DNA of 21,846 nt, from positions 1-21,846 of IMG/VR virus record IMGVR_UViG_3300033816_001129. One strand, given 5' to 3'. The position numbers and the translations under genes are program-made. A model generated the notes under the pieces. It saw nothing but the letters and a program-made list of their open reading frames with translations. It was not told the origin of the DNA and searched no databases. Below are positions 3,241 to 21,846 of the stretch, in pieces. The stretch comes from a virus. How positions within the stretch are numbered: the first letter of the stretch is position 1; each line of letters opens with the position of its first letter.

Positions 3241-6200
3241 TCACACCGCCCGGGTACGAGCAGCGTCAAGAAGTTGCAGAAGGCGCGACTCGTCGCGCGC
3301 ATCGATGGAGGCGCTGACCTTGCGGTCTCCCGAGGAAAGCTCCACACGCACCGTGCGGCTGGGCCCGGCGTCTGTCGCCAGCACAGGTCGGGTCAGCCGC
3401 GTGGCGTTGGGCTGAACCAAGCCGCCTGTGGCGAAACCCTGAACGCCCGCGAGCGCGCGACCGGCCAAGGCCTGCGCCGGGGCGGACAGGTTGTTGATCG
3501 CTTCGAAGAAACCAGCGCCATAGCGAGACACCGCATCCTTGTTCACAACGTACTCGCCTGGCGTGAGCATCGCCGGGACGGTGTCGGACTTGGCCATGCC
3601 ACCGCGTCGGTAGAACTCGCCCTGGTTCTGCTCCATGTAGTCGATCAGATCCCGCTCCAGGTCTTTGCCATAGACCAGCGGCTGCGCCATCGCCTGCCGC
3701 CAGTTCTGCTTGATCCGATCCAGGGTCTGGCGCTCATTGCCGGTCAGTACCTTGCGGTCGACGAAGCCCTCCAGCGCGCGTCGGTCCTCTCGCGCCAGCT
3801 TGCCCCAGTACTCCATCGTCTTGCGTCGCATGTCCAGGCTGACCGAGGCACCGTAGTTCCACTGCAGCCAGCTGGTGTACTGGTCCAGCCCCTGCAGGCC
3901 GAGCTCGATCATCTTTTGAGCCTCGGCAGCCTCGCGGTTCTTCTTCGGGGTACTGAACTGCTCGCCGCCAGCCGGAGATCGACCGTCACCGAACGCTCGA
4001 ACCGAACCGCCGATGGCGAATCGGGCGACACCATTGGCCAGTCTCGACAACGCGCCGCCGCCGTACTTCTGCACCGCAGCCTTGCGAATCACGAAGGCGC
4101 CCGCATCCAAGGTGCGCGGCACCGTGTCGTGATGGCCGGAGCCGGGAACCGAGCCGCCACTCATCCGGGGAAAGGCCGGAGCCACCGCACCACCGTCGGC
4201 ATATCGGCGCACGCCACCACCGACCAGACCACCGGTGGCATTCGTTTCCACCTTCCTCACGTAGATCGTGTGCGTGCTCGAGGTGTTGGCCCCGTTCAGG
4301 CTCATGACCTCGGCGCGGGCCGCATCGGCGTTGGTGCTGACCTGGTGCCGGGATTCGGTCTGGATGCGATCCAGTGCCTTGATCTGACCCTCGACGTTGG
4401 TGATCGCGGCCTGCGCCTTCTCGGTCGCCACCTTCAGTTCGAACTGTGAGTTCTGGTCGGCGTAGGTCTTGAGCTTGGCCAGCGCCTCTTTGGCTTTGGA
4501 CACGTCGGCGTCCACCGGCAGCGTCTTGCCTTCCTTGAGCAGTTGCTCGTACTGCTGCAGCTTCTTCTCGGCCTCCTGCAAGTCAGCCTGAATCTTGAGC
4601 AGGTACTCCTTCTCGGCCAGCAACTTGTCCAGATCAGTGATGGCCTTGTCGAAGCGCGTCGTGTTGGCGTCCAGCGTGACCTTCAGGCCGTCTTTCAGCT
4701 TGGCCGTGATCTGGTCGATCTGGGTTTCGGTCTGCGTGAGGGTCTGCTGAATCTGCTCGCGCGCAGTCAGCGCAGCCTGTGCAGCCGTCTGGTGCGCCTT
4801 GGCTTCGGCATCCAGGGTCTTGTTGAGAATCTCCTCGGACTCGCGGATGCGCTGGATGGCTTGATTGACACCATCCTTGCCCTGTGCGATCTGTGCGTCG
4901 GCATCCTTGGTCTTCTGGGCCAGTTCGGCGCGCAACGCGTCTGCTTGGCGCATCAGGGCTTCGGCTTGCGCGTATTCCTGCTTGCGATAGGCATCGCGTG
5001 ACTGCGATTCGAGCTGGGTGACCTGCGAAACCGCCTGCTCGGACTGCTTGCGGGCGTCTTCGCCGCGCTTGGCTTCGCTGGTTTGCGAGCTGGCCACCTG
5101 CGAGGCCAAGTCCATCGCCTTCTGGGCCAGTTGTCGGGCCTGCTCGAACTCGCCGTTGGCAAGCGCCTCGCGGGCCTTCTCCTGGTACTCGGCGATCTGG
5201 CGCTTGCGGTCTTCCGTGGCCTCGAAGTCGGTCATGCCCTGGCGACGGATGTCGCGGACACGCTCCTCCGTCGTCATCGAGAGCTGGCGTTTCTCCTCCT
5301 CGATGCGTTTGATCTCGGCCAGATGCCGGTTGGCCTCGGTGTTGAGCGCGTCGATGTGCTGTCGGTACTCGGCCAGCGCCTGGGTCATCGTCTGGCGCTT
5401 GGTCGCCAGGATTTCGTTCTCGACCCGCTGGACGTTGGCCGCGCGCTCGGCTTCGGTCTGACCGTCACGGCGTGCCGCTTCGATCTTGGCCCGCGACTCG
5501 TCGTCGATCAGTTTCAACGCGTCGATAGTCGCCTGCCGCCGCAGCGTGGTCTGCTGGGTCAGCGCATCGGTCAGCAAGGCTGTCGACTTGGTGATCAGCG
5601 CGGCTTCGGACTGCTTCGAGACTTCCAGCGCGGATTGCTCCTGCTGGTAGCGTGCCTTCACCGCCTCTATCTGGCGCTGCAGGTTGGCTTCGACGATGGA
5701 CGTCAGGCCCTTGTAGGCCTCGGCCATCTTGGCAGTGGCGTCGTTGACCGTCTGATTGGCCTTGCCGACGGCCTGCTCGACCTCACCGAGGCGAGACTTC
5801 AGCTTCTCCAGGGCACCGTGGACGGCCTCGATGCCACGCCCGACCGCTTCCTGCGTACCCTGGCGCACGGCTTCGAGCCGCTTCGCGATCTCCTCGGCGG
5901 CGGTGGCGGCGGTGTTCATCGCGCCCTTGGCGGCGTCCGCGCCCTTGGTTGCGTCGGCGTACATCTGCGCGAAGATCTGGTTCATCTCCGCGAGGCGGGC
6001 CTCATGGCGCTTGGTGGCCTGCTCGATGGTGTCCGACGTGAAAACCGCCTTGAATACCTCCCAGCGGTACTGCAATTGCTCGATGCCTTTCATCAGCATC
6101 TCGACCATGAAGATGCCCGCCTTGCGGACGATCTCGAACTTCTCCGACAGCCACGTCCCGATCTCCCAGCCGACCAGGAAGGCACCCAGCACGGCGAACG

Positions 6201-7278
6201 CCGTCTTGAGCACGCCGACGCTGGCCACGGCCGCCGACACCGACAGGTTGGCCGTCGTCCAGGCTGCAGCGGTGGCACTGGCGGCCGTGACTGCCGCCGC
6301 ACCGGCGGTCTGCCACGCGGTGATGAGCGCCGGGATCAGGCGGTAGATCAGCACCGCAAGCCCGACTTCGGCGATGCGCTTCAACCACTGCATCAACGTG
6401 TCGAGGTTGTTGGCGAGAAAGGTCAGCGCCTCAGCCAGCTTCTTGGTCAGACCCGTCGATTCATCGACCCGGTTGATCCACTGCCCGAAGGCATTGCGCA
6501 GGCGCTCGAAGGCCTGGCTCACCGTCTGCGGCAGTTGGGAGTACTCGCTGGCCAGCTTGTCCTTCTGGCTCATCAGCGCGTTGACCACCACGTCGGCGGT
6601 CAAGCGCCCTTCTTCGGCCAGCTTGCGCAATCGCCCGATGGGCACGTTCAGACCATCGGCCAGGGCCTGCGCCAGACGGGGGCTGTTTTCGACGACGGAG
6701 TTGAATTCCTCGCCGCGCAGCACGCCGGAGGCGAGCGCCTGCCCGAACTGCAGCAGGGAGGACTGCGCTTCGGTGGCCGATGCACCCGACAGGCGCAGAG
6801 CCTGCGAGATGCTCTCGGTGATCGTCAGCGCGTCCTTCTGCTCGCCACCCAGCATCCGCACGGCCTGCTGGAGCTTGCCGTACAGGGTGGCCGTTTCCTG
6901 AATCGGCACGCCGATGCGCTGGGCGATATCGAACAGGGCCGCTTGGGCGGTGGTGAACTCACGCTGACCCGCCGTCGCCAGCTTCAGACGCGCGGACATC
7001 ATGTTCCAGGCGTCGGCGATCTGGACGATCTCCAGCACCTTGCCAGCAGCCCAGTTGATCGACAAGAAGGCCAGGAGCTGCGTTTTGGCCGTCGCCACCT
7101 GATCACCGAACGCCGACATCCCGGCCTTGACCTCGGCCATTCCGGCGGCGGCCTTCGCCCCGGCGGTCTTGGCGGTGGTCGACAGCTCGCCGAGACTGCG
7201 TTCGGCGGACGTGATGGCGCGTTTGAGTCCGTCGTCAGCCCCTTCGAGCGCGACGAGGATGGAAATTCGTTTGGCCAT
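3241..7278 (-). CDS. tail tape measure protein
   Basis: At 1345 residues this is the longest gene in the window. The region from about 155 to 240 (ALRLSGASATEAQSSLLQF... LRGEEFNSVVENSPRLAQAL) is the hallmark of the phage tape measure domain. A hydrophobic alanine-rich stretch at about 305-376 could be the membrane-active segment these proteins use during DNA delivery. A very long charged, Gln- and Ala-rich coiled coil follows at about 410-1000. The C-terminal part carries two copies of the GG-x-DTVP-x-L-x-G-x-(Y/F)-V-(V/I)-(R/N)-K motif seen in many tape measures, near residues 1046 and 1226. The protein sets tail length and serves as template for tail tube polymerisation together with the chaperone encoded upstream. 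Start is ATG, three bases after the previous stop. Confidence 0.97.
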   Translation of the reverse strand: MAKRISILVALEGADDGLKRAITSAERSLGELSTTAKTAGAKAAAGMAEVKAGMSAFGDQVATAKTQLLAFLSINWAAGKVLEIVQIADAWNMMSARLKLATAGQREFTTAQAALFDIAQRIGVPIQETATLYGKLQQAVRMLGGEQKDALTITESISQALRLSGASATEAQSSLLQFGQALASGVLRGEEFNSVVENSPRLAQALADGLNVPIGRLRKLAEEGRLTADVVVNALMSQKDKLASEYSQLPQTVSQAFERLRNAFGQWINRVDESTGLTKKLAEALTFLANNLDTLMQWLKRIAEVGLAVLIYRLIPALITAWQTAGAAAVTAASATAAAWTTANLSVSAAVASVGVLKTAFAVLGAFLVGWEIGTWLSEKFEIVRKAGIFMVEMLMKGIEQLQYRWEVFKAVFTSDTIEQATKRHEARLAEMNQIFAQMYADATKGADAAKGAMNTAATAAEEIAKRLEAVRQGTQEAVGRGIEAVHGALEKLKSRLGEVEQAVGKANQTVNDATAKMAEAYKGLTSIVEANLQRQIEAVKARYQQEQSALEVSKQSEAALITKSTALLTDALTQQTTLRRQATIDALKLIDDESRAKIEAARRDGQTEAERAANVQRVENEILATKRQTMTQALAEYRQHIDALNTEANRHLAEIKRIEEEKRQLSMTTEERVRDIRRQGMTDFEATEDRKRQIAEYQEKAREALANGEFEQARQLAQKAMDLASQVASSQTSEAKRGEDARKQSEQAVSQVTQLESQSRDAYRKQEYAQAEALMRQADALRAELAQKTKDADAQIAQGKDGVNQAIQRIRESEEILNKTLDAEAKAHQTAAQAALTAREQIQQTLTQTETQIDQITAKLKDGLKVTLDANTTRFDKAITDLDKLLAEKEYLLKIQADLQEAEKKLQQYEQLLKEGKTLPVDADVSKAKEALAKLKTYADQNSQFELKVATEKAQAAITNVEGQIKALDRIQTESRHQVSTNADAARAEVMSLNGANTSSTHTIYVRKVETNATGGLVGGGVRRYADGGAVAPAFPRMSGGSVPGSGHHDTVPRTLDAGAFVIRKAAVQKYGGGALSRLANGVARFAIGGSVRAFGDGRSPAGGEQFSTPKKNREAAEAQKMIELGLQGLDQYTSWLQWNYGASVSLDMRRKTMEYWGKLAREDRRALEGFVDRKVLTGNERQTLDRIKQNWRQAMAQPLVYGKDLERDLIDYMEQNQGEFYRRGGMAKSDTVPAMLTPGEYVVNKDAVSRYGAGFFEAINNLSAPAQALAGRALAGVQGFATGGLVQPNATRLTRPVLATDAGPSRTVRVELSSGDRKVSASIDARDESRLLQLLDAARTRAV

Positions 7279-7281
7279 GAG

Positions 7282-7926
7282 TCAGTCCACCGTGCTGATC
7301 TGGCGCTCGACCTCGGCCGCCAGACGCGGGATGCGACCCGCAACCAGACGCTCGATATCGATGCGCTTCTTGAGCGTGACCTTGGGCACCAGGACGGCGA
7401 TGGGCACGTCTGCACCGCGCTTGATGCGCTTGATGCCCTCAGCCTTGCGGTAACGGCGCTTGAAGCCCGCCAGTGGCCGGTCGTGCTCCTTGATGTTCTC
7501 GGCCATCAGGACGATGTTCCCTTTTGCGTTCTTGATGAAATAGGCATTGCCGCCGCGCATCAGCTCGGCCACCTGCGCCTTGAATCGCTTGCGACCCACC
7601 CGGCCGTTCAGTGGAATCAGCATCCGGCCAGCGATCTGCCCACCGGTCTCGTGCATCCCCGACCACGGAATGCGCGAACCCACGTAAAGCGCAGGCAACC
7701 GGTTCGGGTCTTTGGCCAGCACCTTGGCGGTGAAGCCCTTGAGGAAGGACTTCTTGACCACCGCCATCTGACTGGCGACGTGGCTGCGCACGTCCTGCTT
7801 GAGTTCGACCGCCTCACTGGCGATGGCGCGTGCGACCGCCTTCTTGACCTTGTCGCGGAACTCGCCGCCCCAGCGGCGCAGTTGCGCCTGGGCGGCGGCG
7901 CTATCGATCTGGACGGAAATGCGCAC
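7282..7926 (-). CDS. DUF6441-like phage tail or neck protein
   Basis: This 214-residue basic protein begins at GTG 7926. The in-frame stop just upstream leaves no earlier start, and no clear Shine-Dalgarno sequence precedes it, so it probably depends on coupling to the frameshifted chaperone product that ends five bases before. The N-terminus (MRISVQIDSAAAQAQL) and the WSGMHETGGQIAGRMLIPL segment resemble DUF6441 proteins, which occur between the tail chaperone and tape measure genes in lambda-like prophages. A role in tail completion or tail-tip assembly is possible, but nothing in the sequence proves it. Confidence 0.8.
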   Translation of the reverse strand: MRISVQIDSAAAQAQLRRWGGEFRDKVKKAVARAIASEAVELKQDVRSHVASQMAVVKKSFLKGFTAKVLAKDPNRLPALYVGSRIPWSGMHETGGQIAGRMLIPLNGRVGRKRFKAQVAELMRGGNAYFIKNAKGNIVLMAENIKEHDRPLAGFKRRYRKAEGIKRIKRGADVPIAVLVPKVTLKKRIDIERLVAGRIPRLAAEVERQISTVD

Positions 7927-7931
7927 AGCGG

Positions 7932-8545
7932 TCAGTCACGAAGGTTGGCCTTGTCGGTGAGGCGGTCGAGGGTCTGATCGAGGTGGCGGGCATCGCCGCG
8001 CGTGCCAATGGCAATCACCGAAAGCAGCCGTGCATCTCGGGCCGCATCGGTGCGCGCGGTCGCTGCGACGAAACCGCGCACCTGCGCCAAGGTGTAGTCG
8101 AGGATGTCGGGCAGGCGGTGGCCGTGCTCGATCAGGTGCTGAACGGCGTCGAACCACCCGCCACCGCCCTTGCCGACTTCACCCCGGGCGGCAGCTTCAC
8201 TTGGGTGAACAGACCGTCGAGTTTCGGGATCACCGTCCGGGTAAAAAAATCCGCGTTCACCTCGATCACTTTGGCCGCCAGCAGGATCGCTTCGTCGGCG
8301 GCCAGCTCATCGACCCACGCGCGAGGCTTGCCGACGGCGATGGCGATGGCCGACAGCAGGTCGTCGCCGCGTTCACCAAACAGCGCCAGCCAATCGATGT
8401 CCGTGGTGGTGAGTTGCTGCATCACCGGCGAGATCGCCCGCAAGAAGCCGGGCATTTGCCCGACCTTCAGCGGCTTGATGGCCAACGGCTCACCGTCGAT
8501 GACCAGTTCGATGCTTTGCGGAATAAGGGTTTCCAGATCACTCAT
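7932..8545 (-). CDS. tail assembly chaperone GT-type fusion made by a -1 frameshift
   Basis: In the -1 frame relative to the chaperone gene at 8132-8545, an open frame runs past the chaperone stop to a TGA at 7932-7934. It encodes a convincing protein domain: GWFDAVQHLIEHGHRLPDI, then DYTLAQVRGFVAATAR. No ATG, GTG or TTG precedes this domain in its frame, so it cannot be an independent gene with a normal start. A T-TTT-TTT heptamer in the zero frame at codons 99-101 is a classic slippery site. Slipping there gives 101 zero-frame residues plus 103 new ones, 204 in all. This matches the lambda G/GT logic: the short product is abundant and the long one recruits tail tube subunits to the tape measure. 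The frameshift itself is inferred. Confidence 0.75.
8132..8545 (-). CDS. tail assembly chaperone, G-type short product
   Basis: This 137-residue protein lies between the tail tube and tape measure genes, where tailed phages encode the tail assembly chaperone. It is acidic and compact, with a VIDGEPLAIKPLKVGQMPGF segment near residues 15-34 and a conserved-looking EVNADFF near 95-101. It ends in frame zero at TGA 8132-8134, about 110 bases after the slippery site. It has no signal peptide or membrane segment. In the family, the short form binds the tape measure during assembly and is absent from the finished particle. The start is ATG 8545, 13 bases after the tail tube stop. Confidence 0.88.
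   Translation of the reverse strand: MSDLETLIPQSIELVIDGEPLAIKPLKVGQMPGFLRAISPVMQQLTTTDIDWLALFGERGDDLLSAIAIAVGKPRAWVDELAADEAILLAAKVIEVNADFFTRTVIPKLDGLFTQVKLPPGVKSARAVAGGSTPFST
8243..8249 (-). promoter_or_regulatory. probable -1 ribosomal frameshift slippery heptamer
   Basis: Seven consecutive T residues on the minus strand are read as GAT-TTT-TTT in the chaperone frame, giving a perfect X-XXY-YYZ heptamer. It lies where the -1 frame is already open and continues to 7934. Phe is mostly TTC in the rest of this gene (three of four codons), so the tandem TTT codons stand out in GC-rich DNA. I did not evaluate a downstream stimulatory structure. Confidence 0.7.
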
Positions 8546-8557
8546 GGCGCACCCCGA

Positions 8558-9310
8558 TCAAAGCTGCACGATGCGGCCGAACTGGCCCAGCACCGCGTCG
8601 AAGGGCTTGGTGGTGTCGGCCAGCAGCGAGCCTTCCAGCTCGAACTTGTTGTATTCGTCCGAGATGAAGGAGATTTCCTTCAAGGGGTCGAAAGCTACGC
8701 GGTAGAGCTCGACCAGCACCTTGGCATTGCCCTGCGCCGTGTTGATACCTTCGAGCCGCAAAAAGCGCTCGGGCAGCGCCTGCGTGAAGATACCGATCTC
8801 GGTGGCCACACCGTAGGCATAGCTGGCCTTGAAAGGCGCGGTGAAGCCAGTGGTATCCAGAAACTGGATAGCACCGAAGTCGGTGTCGGCCGTGTAGTTC
8901 GTGCCCAAGACCAGGGTTGCGGGCGTGCCCGCCGAATCCACCACCACCAGGGTCGACACCTTGGGGTGGGCGAGGAAGTAGCGGTCACCAGCTGTCGGCG
9001 TGGCACCGCCCACAGGTTCGGCCGTGACGGTGCCCGGCGTGCCGACGACGTGGTTGCCGTAGAGGGCCAGCGCCAGGTTCTCCTTGGTGAATTCCTCGAT
9101 GGTGAGGTTCACGGTGGCGGACTTCTGCTTGACCATCCGGTGATCCAAGGATCGCTGGCCGGTCTGGCTCTCGTAGTGCTCCAGCACGTCGGTCTTGAGG
9201 GAGAGTTTCAGCTCGGCGACGTTGCCGGGCGAGCGAACTTCGATGGGGTGGCCGTCGATGTCGCGCTTGCCGAGGAAGACGCGGCCTTGAAAACTGGCAT
9301 AGGTGCTCAT
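8558..9310 (-). CDS. major tail (tube) protein
   Basis: This 250-residue protein has the composition of a siphophage tail tube subunit: beta-rich and soluble, with a strand-forming N-terminus (MSTYASFQGRVFLGKRD). A central region around residues 98-140, rich in Gly and Thr, may be an extra surface domain or loop. It sits between the tail terminator pair and the tail chaperone, the usual place for the tube gene. The product would polymerise around the tape measure to form the DNA conduit. Its ATG overlaps the TGA of the preceding small gene (ATGA), implying coupling. Confidence 0.88.
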   Translation of the reverse strand: MSTYASFQGRVFLGKRDIDGHPIEVRSPGNVAELKLSLKTDVLEHYESQTGQRSLDHRMVKQKSATVNLTIEEFTKENLALALYGNHVVGTPGTVTAEPVGGATPTAGDRYFLAHPKVSTLVVVDSAGTPATLVLGTNYTADTDFGAIQFLDTTGFTAPFKASYAYGVATEIGIFTQALPERFLRLEGINTAQGNAKVLVELYRVAFDPLKEISFISDEYNKFELEGSLLADTTKPFDAVLGQFGRIVQL

Positions 9311-14647: not shown

Positions 14648-15244
14648 TCAGGAAACCTTGTGTGCGATGAGGTGGCTACTGGCCTTCACCACCGCATTCG
14701 AGGCAGCAACCTCAGAGGCGAAGCGGATCTGCAGACTGCCCGCCGCCGCCGCCGTGACCACCAGCAGGTCGGCGCAGGCCAGGCTGTTGGTGTTGGCGAC
14801 GTCGATGCCGTTGGTGGCAGCACCGCTGTCCGCCGTGCGTTGGTTAGCTACCGTGTTGGCCGTCAACGATGTCGGCGTGGCCCATTGAGCGACAACAGTG
14901 GCGCCGACAGGGACCGTTTGCGTGAACCGGATGCCCGTCCCTGTCGCGGCGCACTGAAACATCACCCTGGCATTGATGGCGTAGGTGGCGTTTGCATCCA
15001 GGGCGATCGCCAACCCGGTGGCATTGGCCAAGGTCGTCGTGTTGTTGGTGACGTCAGCGGTCAGGCGTGCCACCGTCAGCCGAGCATCAGCACCAACCAG
15101 GAGCGCCAGGTCAACCCAGCCAGTGCCGTCGCACCAATAGGGCTTGTTGTCGGCAGCGAGGCGCACGATGACACCAGCCAGACCACTCGATGGCGCTGGC
15201 AAGGCCGATACGACCGGCACGACCCGGTAGGCCAGATCCTTCAC
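14648..15244 (-). CDS. tail-fibre-like or decoration-like protein
   Basis: This 198-residue protein starts at GTG 15244, three bases after the preceding TAA. The N-terminal 50 residues include LAADNKPYWCDGTGWVDL, a short module common in phage fibre proteins. The remainder is a Thr-, Ala- and Asn-rich beta-rich domain (for example TYAINARVMFQCAATGTGIR), like receptor-facing domains of tail fibres. No coiled coil or signal peptide is visible. It is encoded together with two other fibre-like proteins, between the terminase and gpW genes. The role as a particle surface component is inference. Confidence 0.72.
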   Translation of the reverse strand: MKDLAYRVVPVVSALPAPSSGLAGVIVRLAADNKPYWCDGTGWVDLALLVGADARLTVARLTADVTNNTTTLANATGLAIALDANATYAINARVMFQCAATGTGIRFTQTVPVGATVVAQWATPTSLTANTVANQRTADSGAATNGIDVANTNSLACADLLVVTAAAAGSLQIRFASEVAASNAVVKASSHLIAHKVS

Positions 15245-15247
15245 CGA

Positions 15248-16039
15248 TTACCCCATCACCACGACGCGATAGGCGTTCGCTGCAGGTGCCGCCGCGAAGT
15301 TGAGCCGGGCGCTGTTGGTGCTGGGCAGCGACACGTCGCAGTTGACCTGCTCGTAGTTGCCCGATGCCTGATAGACCTGGACGACGACATCGCGCGTGGC
15401 GAAGTTGTGATTGACGTCGAACTGCGTGCTGGTGCCGTCGCCAATGGTTGCTTGCGCGCGGCGGGTCTTGTTCGCCCACGCATTGAGCTTCAGGGGCGTG
15501 ACAAACCGGGCGTCGTCTGTTCCGGTGTCAGTTTCCGCCTGCGTGGCGATCTCCGCGATGCCGGAGCTGGTCTCCGATGCGGCGCCGACGGACGATCCGA
15601 ACTGAATCCAGGTGACCGTGCCCGTATCCAGCACGAAGTTGACGACAGACTGCCGCCAGCTCGTTCCGGCAGACGTGCCCTCCTCGACAGTGGTGACGGC
15701 CTGTTCCAGCTCTGCCGCAGCATTGGTATCAAGCGAGCGGGTCATGGAGACCGCCGCGCCGTTCCAGATGTAGATGCCGTTCTCCGAGCCGACCGTCTGC
15801 GCTTTGACCAGGGCGCGATCGCCCACGGTCATGGTTACGCCGTCGATCGAAGCACCTGGCGATGAAAGGTTGAGGTTGGTCTGGGACGCGACTCGGCAGG
15901 AGTCTTTCCATGCCAACCCCTCCACGGCCGAGTTGAGGTCGGCCAGGCGGGCCGGTTCGTCGGCGGTGACCGGCGACGGCAGGTTGCGTATGCGGGCGAC
16001 GCCGCCAAAGTCGAGGTCGGAGAGTTGCTTGCGGGACAT
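15248..16039 (-). CDS. short phage tail fibre protein
   Basis: This 263-residue protein starts with a conserved fibre-type N-terminus (LSDLDFGGVARIRNLPSP ... ADLNSAVEGLAWKD). A beta-rich region (about 50-150) with DRALVKAQTVGSENGIYIW follows, then the GIAEIATQAETDTGTDDARF repeat unit at 160-179 that marks fibre shafts of the Phage_fiber_2 type. The last 65 residues (197-263) form a beta domain with FDVNHNF and AAPAANAYRVVV. The C-terminal domain resembles that of the neighbouring 120-residue protein. A strong AAAGGAA site precedes ATG 16039. It probably contributes to host attachment, although it is encoded in the head module. Confidence 0.85.
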   Translation of the reverse strand: MSRKQLSDLDFGGVARIRNLPSPVTADEPARLADLNSAVEGLAWKDSCRVASQTNLNLSSPGASIDGVTMTVGDRALVKAQTVGSENGIYIWNGAAVSMTRSLDTNAAAELEQAVTTVEEGTSAGTSWRQSVVNFVLDTGTVTWIQFGSSVGAASETSSGIAEIATQAETDTGTDDARFVTPLKLNAWANKTRRAQATIGDGTSTQFDVNHNFATRDVVVQVYQASGNYEQVNCDVSLPSTNSARLNFAAAPAANAYRVVVMG

Positions 16040-16051
16040 TCAGTGTTCCTT

Positions 16052-16414
16052 TCAAATCAGTCGTGCCAACCCGGCAATCGGGATGGCGAATCGGATAACG
16101 AGCTGGTTCACACTCGTGTGCATCACATCGGCCTCGATCTCGTTGCCGCCGCTGTCGACAATCGACACGGCGGGTCTCAGCCCGAGGTTGTGGTTGATGA
16201 CCCAGGCGGCAGATGTAGACGTCTGGGTGTGCAGATACGCCACGCCGCTACTGCTACCTGTTGGTTCGCGAGCGGCCAACTCGTTGATGGCCGCTACGAG
16301 ATCGCCCTTGGCCGAGGTGCTGAGACGATCCATCGGCCCGGTGCGCGCGTCGATCTGCTCGAATAGCTCGGCGACACGCGCCACGAAGCTGTTGATTTGT
16401 GATTGCAGGCTCAT
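16052..16414 (-). CDS. small tail-fibre-like protein with a coiled N-terminus
   Basis: This 120-residue protein has an N-terminal amphipathic helix (about 1-50) containing LSTSAKGDLVAAINEL, a motif that recurs in tail fibres. A C-terminal beta domain follows at 58-118 with AWVINHNLGLRPAVSIVDS and IAGLARL. That domain has the same NHN-x and final-strand pattern as the C-terminus of the adjacent 263-residue fibre protein, so the two look related by duplication. It follows the large terminase gene by 12 bases. It may trimerise through its helix. The function is inferred from the motifs. Confidence 0.78.
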   Translation of the reverse strand: MSLQSQINSFVARVAELFEQIDARTGPMDRLSTSAKGDLVAAINELAAREPTGSSSGVAYLHTQTSTSAAWVINHNLGLRPAVSIVDSGGNEIEADVMHTSVNQLVIRFAIPIAGLARLI

Positions 16415-16426
16415 GGCGCACGGGCT

Positions 16427-18394
16427 CTAGCCCAACCAGCGACTGCGAATGACACGACGTGTCGGCCGGCTCGGTTTGGGTACTCCAGAAACACCGAGGC
16501 CACCTTCATCGGTGGCCTCTTTGGGTTGCTCGGTCGTGGGTGCATCCGGCGGACGCAAGCCCAGCTGACGCTCCAGCTCTCGCCAGTGGCGATCTTCAAA
16601 TCGCTCCAGGCCTGCAGACGACGCGGCCGCCCGGGCGTACACGTAGCAGTCGAGCGCTTCATTGCGTTCGCGCATCTTTTGCCACTCGCGGATCGGAAAT
16701 CCGTTGCGGTCGCGGCGGGTGATCAGTTGCTCGGCACAGAGCTGCTGGATGAACTCGGCATCCATCTTGGGCAGGTGCACGAACCCGGGTGGATAGACCG
16801 TGGTTACCCCGTCTTCGTTCACGTCCGCACTCTTGCGCAGGTTGTTGTAGAACTCGAGTTTGGCGATGCCCACGGCCACGGTGAAGACCTTGATGCCGCG
16901 CCGCAGCTTCCTTCCACCCAGCGTGACGTCCACGGCCGTCGGCGTACCGATGAGAGCCGCGCCGCGCGAGACTCCCTTGACTGGCATGACGCGCGGATCT
17001 CGGCATGCGCGCACAAACGCGTAGGCCTCCTGCGTTGCAAAGCCGGTGTCGAGCGCGAAGCGGGCCAGCGGCATTTCGACCCCTGAGGCGTGGGTCCAGG
17101 TCTCAGCAATCACTCCCCCGAGTTGCTTCCAGACGGAGTCGCGCACCGTATCGCCCATCAACACGCGGTGCTCCACCAGCCAGGATTCCTTGCCGCGACC
17201 GAAGGCCCAAACGGACACCTCGATTCGGTCCTTCTGTACGTCAGCACCACCGACCAGAAGCATGCCGCCATCAGGCACGGTGCCCAATGGGTAGTCCTCA
17301 CGGCGCTCGATCAACCTCTGCCAATCCGGGGCTTCACCCTCCTCGACCCAGGTTTCACCGAGTTCGGTGTTTTTGAATGTCTTGATGGCAGAGGCTGATC
17401 CGGACTCCTTGCTCACGGCTCCTTCCCATGCGGCAGCGACGTCTTGCCAACCCCGCCAGCCCACCGGGCTATACAGCGACGACAGGTGGAATCCAGCCGT
17501 CTTTGCGCGGTTTTCGGGCGTCATGGCCCGCCATTCGCCATGCTCCAGCATCCATGTCTTGTGATGCTCCTCGATGGGCGAGTCGCAGGATTCGCAGATG
17601 TAGGCAGCCGTCTGTGGCTCGCCTTTCGCCCAGCGCAGTTGCTCAAAGCGCAACCACTGGCGGTGCGAGCAGTGCGGGCACGGAACGAAGTAGCGGCGTT
17701 GGTCGCTGGCTTCGTACTCACGCTCAATCGAACTCGCCCCCGAGATCGTTGGTGTCGAGACGATGAAGATCTTGCGACGCGCAAAGGTACGGGTACGTGC
17801 TTCGGCCAGCGAGATCGCGTCACCCTCACCCTCGACGTCCAGCGGGTAGCCATCCACCTCGTCGAGGAACAGATACCGCACCGGCATTGACCGCAGACCA
17901 ACCGCACTGTTGGCTCCGGTCATCACCAGCACACCGCCCCGGAACTCCTTAGCCAGGATGGTGTTGCCCGAGTCACGCGAGCGCGCCGGGGCGATCAGTT
18001 CTGCCAGTGCGGCCGACTCCTCGATCAGCGGGTCGATCCGCTGCTTGGAGTTGCGCTTGGCCATTTCCACCGTCGGCCACACGGCCATCATCGGCCCCGG
18101 CGCGTGGTGGATCACGTAGCCGATCCAGTTCGAGCCCATTTCGGTGGCGCCGAGTTGCGCCGCCTTCATGAACACCACGCGCTCGATCGGCGAGGTCGGC
18201 GACAGGCAGTCCATGATGGCTTTCAGGTACGGCGTGCGGCTGGTGCGCCAGCGCCCCGGCTCGGCCGAGGCCTTGCTGGAAAGCATGCGATGGCGATCCG
18301 ACCACTCGGACACGGAAAGCAGCGGATCGGGTGTCAGCCCCTCACGCCATGCGCGCTCAATCTCGGCCGCGCCTTCGTAGTCAAGATCCTGCAT
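16427..18394 (-). CDS. terL: terminase large subunit, lambda gpA family
   Basis: This 655-residue protein is a GpA-type terminase that cuts concatemeric DNA and drives packaging by ATP hydrolysis. The ATPase part has a Walker A-like KAAQLGATE at 77-85, Walker B YLFLDEVD at 174-181 and the coupling motif VSTPT at 212-216. A probable zinc-binding loop holds Cys239, Cys242, Cys267 and Cys270 (CPHC and CESC). The nuclease part includes GADVQ (Asp385), ALDTGF (Asp449) and NEALDCYVYA (Asp582), candidate metal ligands. The N-terminal PGRWRTSRTPYL is characteristic of the family. Its ATG overlaps the small-subunit stop by one base (TGATG). Confidence 0.97.
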   Translation of the reverse strand: MQDLDYEGAAEIERAWREGLTPDPLLSVSEWSDRHRMLSSKASAEPGRWRTSRTPYLKAIMDCLSPTSPIERVVFMKAAQLGATEMGSNWIGYVIHHAPGPMMAVWPTVEMAKRNSKQRIDPLIEESAALAELIAPARSRDSGNTILAKEFRGGVLVMTGANSAVGLRSMPVRYLFLDEVDGYPLDVEGEGDAISLAEARTRTFARRKIFIVSTPTISGASSIEREYEASDQRRYFVPCPHCSHRQWLRFEQLRWAKGEPQTAAYICESCDSPIEEHHKTWMLEHGEWRAMTPENRAKTAGFHLSSLYSPVGWRGWQDVAAAWEGAVSKESGSASAIKTFKNTELGETWVEEGEAPDWQRLIERREDYPLGTVPDGGMLLVGGADVQKDRIEVSVWAFGRGKESWLVEHRVLMGDTVRDSVWKQLGGVIAETWTHASGVEMPLARFALDTGFATQEAYAFVRACRDPRVMPVKGVSRGAALIGTPTAVDVTLGGRKLRRGIKVFTVAVGIAKLEFYNNLRKSADVNEDGVTTVYPPGFVHLPKMDAEFIQQLCAEQLITRRDRNGFPIREWQKMRERNEALDCYVYARAAASSAGLERFEDRHWRELERQLGLRPPDAPTTEQPKEATDEGGLGVSGVPKPSRPTRRVIRSRWLG

Positions 18395-19956: not shown

Positions 19957-20325
19957 ATGAACACCAACCAGCAAATGCCCGCCACCCAGAATGAAGCCTG
20001 GGGCTTTTGGGGCACGATGAACGAACACGCCAACGCCGCGTGGCCACTGGCGATGACCGCCATCTCGGACGCCACCAACCAGCCCCTCGAATCAGTCCTG
20101 GTCTTCCTCGACAGCCGCCACGGACGACACTTCGCCGACGACGTCCTCAACCAACTGCACGCGGGCCGCGATCTGGCAGACGCCATCAACGCCGCCACCC
20201 AGCAGTGGATGCGCTGGACGATTGGCCGCCAGACCAGCAAGCAATACGGCATCCCGCGCGGTCTGCCCTACCTGACGGGCTTCGTGATTCACTGCGAGAT
20301 CACCGACGAGTCGCTGGCCGCCTGA
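19957..20325 (+). CDS. conserved mobile-element protein of unknown function
   Basis: This 122-residue protein starts at ATG 19957 with an AAGGAG site at six bases. It is soluble and rich in Trp, Gln and Asn. Notable segments are EAWGFWGTMNEHANAAWPLA, LDSRHGRHFADDV (residues 51-63), NAATQQWMRWTIG and the C-terminal YGIPRGLPYLTGFVIH. I do not recognise a named family, though proteins of this look occur among small accessory genes of plasmids and integrative elements. Its last 37 bases overlap the 3' end of the opposing methyltransferase gene. It is the last gene of the plus-strand island, and no terminator is visible after it. Confidence 0.85.
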   Translation: MNTNQQMPATQNEAWGFWGTMNEHANAAWPLAMTAISDATNQPLESVLVFLDSRHGRHFADDVLNQLHAGRDLADAINAATQQWMRWTIGRQTSKQYGIPRGLPYLTGFVIHCEITDESLAA

Positions 20326-21557
20326 TCGAACGTCACGCCATCCGCCTCGCGGGTGGCTTGCTTGCACGCCCAGTCCTGCCAGCGGCGCACGATCACGTCG
20401 ACGTACTTGGGGTCGAGCTCGATCAGCCGGGCCAGCCGTCCTGACTTTTCAGCGGCGATCAGCGTCGTGCCGGAACCGCCGAACGGGTCAAGCACCAGGT
20501 TGCCGGAGCGGCTCGAATTGCGGATCGCGCGCTCGACCAGCTCCACCGGCTTCATCGTCGGGTGCAAGTCGTTCTTGTGCGGCTTCTTGATCTGCCAGAC
20601 GTCGCTCTGATCACGGTCGCCGCACCAGTGGCGCGTCGCGCCGTCAGGCCACCCGTAGAGGATGGGCTCGTACTGGCGCTGGTAGTCGGAGCGGCCCAGC
20701 GTGAACGTGTTCTTGGCCCAGATGACAAAAGTTGACCACTTGCCACCGGCGGCGCGGAACGCAGACTGCAGCACATCCAGTTCGCTGGACGACATCGCCA
20801 CGTAGATACCGCCCCGGCAGTGCGCGATGGTCGGCGTCAGCGCCGCCAGCAGGAAGGCGTAGAAGCCGTCGCCCAGGTTGTCGTTCAGGATCGCGCGATC
20901 CTTGCCGCGCATCTTGTCCTTGGCGCTGTTGGCGTAGTTGACGTTGTAGGGCGGGTCGGTGAAGACCATGTCGACTGTCTCGCCCTTGAGCAACTGCTGG
21001 TAACTCTCGGCCACGGTGGAGTCCCCGCACAGCAGGCGGTGACCACCTAGCAGCCAGACATCGCCCGGGCGAGAGATCGGCGTCTCCGACAACTCGGGCA
21101 CCGCATCGTCATCGGTTTCGCCTTCGCCATCCGGCTCATCGCCCGCCATCAACTCGGCCAGCGCATCGGCATCGAAGCCGGTCAGCGACACGTCGAAGTC
21201 GTCGTCCTGCAAGGCTGCGATCTCGATGCGCAGCATCGCGTCGTCCCAGCCCGCGTTCTCGGCGATGCGGTTGTCCGCGATCACCAGGGCCCGGCGCTGT
21301 GTCGGGCTCAGATGATCCAGCACGACCACCGGCACCACCTCCAGACCGAGCTTGTGAGCGGCGGCAAGCCGTCCGTGCCCGGCCACGATGACGCCGTCGC
21401 TACCGGCGAGGATTGGGTTGGTAAATCCGAACTCGGCAATTGACGCGGCGATCTGAGCCACCTGATCGTCCGAGTGGGTGCGCGCGTTGCGGGCATAGGG
21501 CAGCAGCTTGGCGGTCGGCCACTGCTCAATCTTGTCGGCAAACCAAGAGGCGGTCAT
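20289..21557 (-). CDS. ParB-like domain plus DNA methyltransferase
   Basis: This 422-residue protein joins an N-terminal ParB/Srx-like domain (about 10-135; KLLPYARNARTHSDDQV, then GHGRLAAAHKLG) to a DNA N4/N6-methyltransferase domain. The catalytic motif DPPY is at 201-204 and the S-adenosylmethionine-binding DPFGGSGTT at 357-365. This order, with the catalytic motif first, is that of beta-class enzymes. HPTMKPVEL at 332-340 is also typical. It would methylate adenine N6 or cytosine N4; phage enzymes of this kind often protect phage DNA from host restriction or act with packaging. No restriction partner is visible. Its ATG overlaps the stop of the upstream methyltransferase (ATGA). Confidence 0.93.
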   Translation of the reverse strand: MTASWFADKIEQWPTAKLLPYARNARTHSDDQVAQIAASIAEFGFTNPILAGSDGVIVAGHGRLAAAHKLGLEVVPVVVLDHLSPTQRRALVIADNRIAENAGWDDAMLRIEIAALQDDDFDVSLTGFDADALAELMAGDEPDGEGETDDDAVPELSETPISRPGDVWLLGGHRLLCGDSTVAESYQQLLKGETVDMVFTDPPYNVNYANSAKDKMRGKDRAILNDNLGDGFYAFLLAALTPTIAHCRGGIYVAMSSSELDVLQSAFRAAGGKWSTFVIWAKNTFTLGRSDYQRQYEPILYGWPDGATRHWCGDRDQSDVWQIKKPHKNDLHPTMKPVELVERAIRNSSRSGNLVLDPFGGSGTTLIAAEKSGRLARLIELDPKYVDVIVRRWQDWACKQATREADGVTFDQAASDSSVISQ

Positions 21558-21846
21558 TGCTTGGCCTCCGTGGTGGCCAGACGTTCATTGACCACCTCGT
21601 CGAAGGACTGGCCTGTTGCCAACAGCGTGACGGGCACGCCGGGGTGATTCTGTTGGAAGCGCTTGATGGCGACATCCACGTACTCCGGCGCGATCTCCAC
21701 GCTGCGGCACACACGACCGGTGCGCTGCGCGGCCAGCATCGTCGTGCCGCTGCCGCCGAAGGGTTCGAACACAAGGTCGCCTGCGTCGGAGTAGGCCTCG
21801 ATCACGAACTCCGGCAGCGCCACCGGGAACACGGCCGGGTGGTCGA
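21554..21846 (-). CDS. second DNA methyltransferase, 5' part outside the window
   Basis: Only the last 96 residues are in the window. The frame is open to the window edge and begins DHPAVFPVALPEFVIEAYSD, so the GTG at 21832 is an internal valine and not a start. The S-adenosylmethionine-binding motif EPFGGSGTT and the following helix (MLAAQRTGR) with VEIAPEYVDVAIKRFQ are typical of the C-terminal half of beta-class DNA methyltransferases. The catalytic DPPY-type motif would lie beyond the edge. The target specificity cannot be read from this fragment. It is translationally coupled to the downstream ParB-like methyltransferase. Confidence 0.9.
   Translation of the reverse strand, partial: DHPAVFPVALPEFVIEAYSDAGDLVFEPFGGSGTTMLAAQRTGRVCRSVEIAPEYVDVAIKRFQQNHPGVPVTLLATGQSFDEVVNERLATTEAKQ

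Follow-up and report, generated by a model that had tools for sequence, protein, structure and literature searches.

A gene in the tail region of this viral DNA very probably encodes a tail assembly chaperone of the lambda G/GT kind, with two products made from one gene through a -1 slip at a run of seven T. The window, by which we mean the whole 21,846-nucleotide stretch that was analysed, carries this gene on its minus strand, and its parts are arranged as follows.

8132-8545, minus strand: 0-frame open reading frame (ORF) of the probable G-type tail assembly chaperone (137 amino acids; PHROG 1442; dN/dS 0.17)
8260-8263, minus strand: Shine-Dalgarno-like GAGG, a candidate stimulator by its position and its frozen Glu95 codon
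8243-8249, minus strand: slippery heptamer T TTT TTT, placed by sequence and phase and conserved in homologues
7935-8243, minus strand: extension of 103 codons in the -1 frame, open in all 117 homologues
7935-8157, minus strand: T-like domain of about 75 amino acids (W-F-D..H-G-H-R..D-I..Y-T-L-x-Q), delimited by PHROG matches and alignment
7932-7934, minus strand: TGA stop of the -1 frame, read from the sequence

The heptamer, which the plus strand reads as A7 at 8243-8249, occupies phase 2 of the chaperone ORF, giving GAT TTT TTT ACC as the 0-frame codons. A -1 step at this site gives ...NADFF-YPDGD..., where the hyphen marks the junction, and the -1 reading then runs to the TGA at 7934-7932, yielding the 204-residue fusion that the sequence-only reading had predicted. 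The 0-frame stop (8134-8132) is 108 nt past the heptamer, in line with the earlier estimate of about 110 bases, and both frames share the stretch 8243-8135. The earlier span of 7932-8158 for the second domain agrees with the conserved domain at about 8157-7935 but not with the -1 reading, which already starts at 8243. No other A or T run in the window (64% GC) reaches six bases, base composition predicts about 0.25 A7 or T7 runs in all, and this one lies at exactly the place and in the phase that a -1 frameshift needs. The window coding sequences that were checked contain two Phe-Phe pairs, one written TTC TTC and the other, at the slip site, TTT TTT.

Conservation of the site was assessed in 132 distinct homologues, collected by scans of viral contigs and species genomes, with identical genes removed and both domains readable. 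The second domain is in the -1 frame in every one of them and the phased heptamer is at the same place, as T TTT TTT in 125 and as T TTT TTC in 7, although these counts are not independent trials because the members share ancestry. In all readable homologues the slip site falls where the two frames overlap, close to the 3' end of the G part, the outcome favourable to a frameshift in the alignment that the sequence-only reading had proposed as a check; with the phase right and the -1 frame open, its probable -1 frameshift at 8243-8249 is supported. The heptamer is kept down to about 28% identity, the Stenotrophomonas members being 28-29% identical in the N part. Most of the hosts named for these genomes belong to the Burkholderiales and other Betaproteobacteria, with Lysobacterales and Stenotrophomonas also represented. 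Individual records show some variation: L143 has a point stop early in the gene and still carries the T7, L164 has N bases at the heptamer position, L186 has the T7, and the phased heptamer of L121 lies within a T8 run. L070, L071 and L199, a Hydrogenophaga metagenome-assembled genome (MAG) and two viral contigs, have no G region at all, and their major tail protein continues without a change of frame into the T domain, joining its second half (L070:2700-3210; ...GFTAPFKASY-TLAQLRGF...). This state is probably a short-homology deletion or an assembly chimaera of one element.

Constraint at the site extends to the choice of codons. Asp99, before the run, is GAT in all 132 homologues against an overall preference for GAC (GAT 788, GAC 1707), and Phe100 is likewise always TTT although Phe is usually TTC (TTT 109, TTC 443). 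All 34 members that are less than 88% identical in DNA read GATTTTTTT at the site. When the 60 N-domain columns with a conserved amino acid were ranked by synonymous variation across 117 main-family members, F100 TTT, D99 GAT, E95 GAG and F101 TTT varied least. The Glu95 codon, third most frozen among the 60 and GAG in 114 of the 115 Glu-bearing sequences, forms part of a GAGG upstream of the heptamer, with 10 nt between the two. The dnaX gene of E. coli has a Shine-Dalgarno-like stimulator some 10 nt ahead of its X XXY YYZ heptamer, and by this analogy the GAGG may raise the slip rate. Since distant relatives have GGGG, GGAG or GGGC at this position and the element is not evident in the group of Stenotrophomonas phages Summit and DLP, we infer its role rather than read it from conservation across the family. 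The site differs from dnaX in its heptamer and in the conserved downstream stem-loop of dnaX, which was not detected here: under pseudoknot-free folding, downstream windows of 43-93 nt had no stability beyond that of dinucleotide shuffles (mean z about +0.3, within -0.4 to +0.5). The frameshift signal appears to consist of the heptamer and perhaps the GAGG.

The same T7 raises the question of whether RNA polymerase, rather than the ribosome, could slip on it. By adding or dropping bases on the run, polymerase would place the fused frame in some of the mRNAs; homopolymer runs can induce such transcriptional slippage (PMC3711429), and the fusion would be nearly the same protein. We regard this as improbable, because programmed transcriptional realignment has been reported for runs of more than eight T (PMC3711429), whereas the run length here is fixed at seven, with the single T8 of L121, and because the seven T TTT TTC relatives shorten the run to six while keeping the tandem-tRNA slip site. 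Constraint falls on the phased heptamer.

Downstream of the 0-frame stop, the -1 frame has a dN/dS of 0.24. The two remaining frames have 1.17 and 2.59, off-frame values that are inflated by construction and serve as contrast only. Purifying selection thus acts on both parts of the fusion, at 0.17 in the N part and 0.24 in the extension. In all 117 members of the set the -1 frame is open, as the way the set was built ensures. The third frame, which contains an Arg/Pro-rich ORF at 7936-8157, is open in just 49 of 117 relatives with dN/dS above 1; we reject this ORF as a gene, as the sequence-only reading had done in calling it spurious.

That the T domain is instead a gene in its own right, using a start codon of its own or re-initiation where the 0 frame stops, is suggested by the short separate ORFs annotated in relatives (DLP5 gp016, DLP3_016 and B3ORF45), by PHROG 13355, a 58-position family that begins inside the T domain, and by the Stenotrophomonas siphophage Salva, for which two unlinked chaperone genes have been reported (PMC7953286), so that linkage by frameshifting is not universal. 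The distribution of start codons makes this very unlikely. No ATG, GTG or TTG stands ahead of the last 70 codons of the -1 frame in 130 of 132 homologues, and the first possible start in the window is a TTG that leaves 52 codons and lies inside the conserved domain. Candidate starts in the homologues also fall within the domain, at positions that differ, and the ORFs annotated here in DLP5 and DLP3 begin inside it; both of these phages carry the T7. The second domain therefore has no usable start, as first proposed, and neither of the findings that the sequence-only reading had named against its frameshift, a separately started second domain or a slip site that is not conserved, was what the homologues showed. 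A separate gene would, moreover, leave the frozen GAT TTT TTT codons unexplained. The remaining explanation, that a homopolymer indel from sequencing, assembly or prophage decay split a single ORF, would suit an error-prone homopolymer in a window from a metagenome-type virus collection, but it is refuted, to the point of having almost no probability left, by the conservation of the same split state in over 100 distinct genes, carried by viral contigs and bacterial genomes that are independent of one another, by purifying selection on both parts, and by the homologues, among which no in-frame fused form was seen.

The surroundings of the gene are consistent with a frameshifted chaperone. Three tail genes flank it on the same strand.

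8558-9310, minus strand: major tail protein with an Ig-like domain (PHROG 807, E 2.3e-80), directly upstream of the chaperone
7282-7926, minus strand: DUF6441 tail-module gene (Pfam PF20039, E 6.7e-80; PHROG 6367), directly downstream of the chaperone
3241-7278, minus strand: tape measure protein (Pfam TMP_3, E 3.4e-64; PHROG 8010)

The chaperone lies between the genes for the major tail protein and the tape measure, the location expected of G/GT genes; the one DUF6441 gene that intervenes before the tape measure gene is a point against. Also upstream are genes for a tail terminator, head-tail attachment, capsid E, decoration protein D, an S49 protease, a lambda-family portal and GpA terminase. 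The DUF6441 gene (7282-7926, minus strand) is a candidate tail-module protein without a named function, and many of the same viral contigs were recovered independently by the chaperone and DUF6441 queries. Antisense to the tape measure gene is an open frame of 964 codons (5083-7977, plus strand), most likely a side effect of the GC-rich codons of that gene. Elsewhere on the minus strand, three genes at 14648-16414 have head-decoration or tail-fibre-like matches (15248-16039, PHROG 2647, E 2.9e-50) and sit between the terminase large subunit (16427-18394) and a small pre-portal gene, an unusual location for fibre-like genes. A gene combining ParB-N with an N6/N4 DNA methylase occupies 20289-21557 and is preceded on its strand (minus) by what seems to be the end of another DNA methylase (21554-21832), at the edge of the window.

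Profile searches matched the N part to PHROG 1442, 'tail assembly chaperone' (E 1.4e-31), and the T part to unnamed families only, namely PHROG 13355 (E 7.9e-25) and the end of PHROG 14432 (E 1.8e-06); fused proteins match PHROG 14432 across the junction. In Pfam, the T domain had no match and the N domain had a sub-threshold one to DUF6631. Sequence searches of solved structures with the N and T domains gave no significant match to a solved chaperone, nor did Foldseek give a significant structural match with the medium-confidence models built for both domains (mean pLDDT 70 and 75). Assignment to the G/GT type therefore rests on gene order, anatomy and profile, the fold being no part of its basis. 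Among cultured phages, tblastn with the fused protein and the DUF6441 protein found nothing at the limits used, and a relaxed search with a diverged family member found the DLP/Summit group.

The resemblance to lambda lies in organization. In both, the gene lies between those for the major tail protein and the tape measure, a -1 shift, here a probable one, falls near the end of G, the T domain has no start of its own, and there are two products, here predicted ones. The slip heptamer of lambda is G GGA AAG, whereas here it is T TTT TTT; the proteins have no detectable sequence similarity in the libraries searched, and here the DUF6441 gene stands between chaperone and tape measure. Xu, Hendrix and Duda reportedly described lambda gpG/gpGT and its analogues in 2004. 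These are reviewed in PMC5009743, according to which lambda G binds the tape measure and T the major tail subunit, at a G:GT ratio near 30:1.

Closer counterparts, with homologous or similarly organised chaperones and protein identity of at most about 38%, are found in cultured phages. The Stenotrophomonas phages Summit, DLP3 and DLP5 (Delepquintavirus) have a homologous chaperone with the same T7, and Pseudomonas phage SM1 has a T7 encoding Phe-Phe with the T domain in the -1 frame. Stenotrophomonas phage Suso and Pseudomonas phage PotUPM1 have T6C (T TTT TTC) and a -1 T domain, and Vibrio PG28 has a candidate A6G slip site. Summit is annotated with a 'tape measure chaperone frameshift product', and Suso is likewise annotated as a frameshift product. 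T-rich sites that make a -1 extension of a tail gene also occur in contractile-tailed phages, at T6G in P2 E/E' and, by prediction, at T7G in the P2-like Smp131 (PMC3931495), where the proteins are reported to be unrelated in sequence to those of lambda. The novelty attached to the T7 by the sequence-only reading was hence overstated, the Summit site being the same T7 and already annotated. The gene is a well-supported member of the well-known G/GT frameshifting kind, a standard device of long-tailed phages, and the biology here is ordinary and established. In Pseudomonas phage B3 (L150:5118), the chaperone gene B3ORF44 contains a phased CCCTTTC (C CCT TTC). The -1 frame that overlaps it has a T-like domain at its end (MTERQILLLHEAEQ...) and is only partly annotated, as ORF45, so this is a possible unannotated frameshift.

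Our model predicts that most ribosomes would translate 8545-8132 and release the 137-amino-acid G-like protein. A minority would slip back one base on GAU UUU UUU and continue in the -1 frame to make the 204-amino-acid G-T fusion, at a rate that the GAGG 10 nt upstream may boost. Because both tRNA-Phe can re-pair fully on UUU UUU, a tandem slip of the two is the simplest reading. Against the model, U_UUU_UUU is reported to be less shift-prone than A_AAA_AAG in E. coli (PMC5009743), although a low slip rate is what G/GT needs; frameshifts in tail chaperones of another family reach 6-7% in reporters (PMC3711429). The two products should act as tail chaperones, and if the analogy with lambda holds, the G part would coat the tape measure protein and the T part would recruit the major tail protein. 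A more general proposal, which is plausible but which we advance tentatively, is that a minimal signal, consisting of a fixed Phe-Phe U7 heptamer and an upstream Shine-Dalgarno-like GAGG without downstream RNA structure, sets the G:GT ratio across a wide lineage of beta- and gammaproteobacterial prophages, and that the PHROG 13355/14432 T domain recruits the tail tube.

Altogether, the main gain of this analysis is the annotation of a T domain that has been filed under 'unknown function'. In many prophages of the Burkholderiales and Lysobacterales, gene callers break this tail gene up or place it in the wrong frame, and the analysis supplies its correct product; it also gives two protein families that lack a name a likely role. 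The conserved codon pattern offers a simple means of finding such slip sites.
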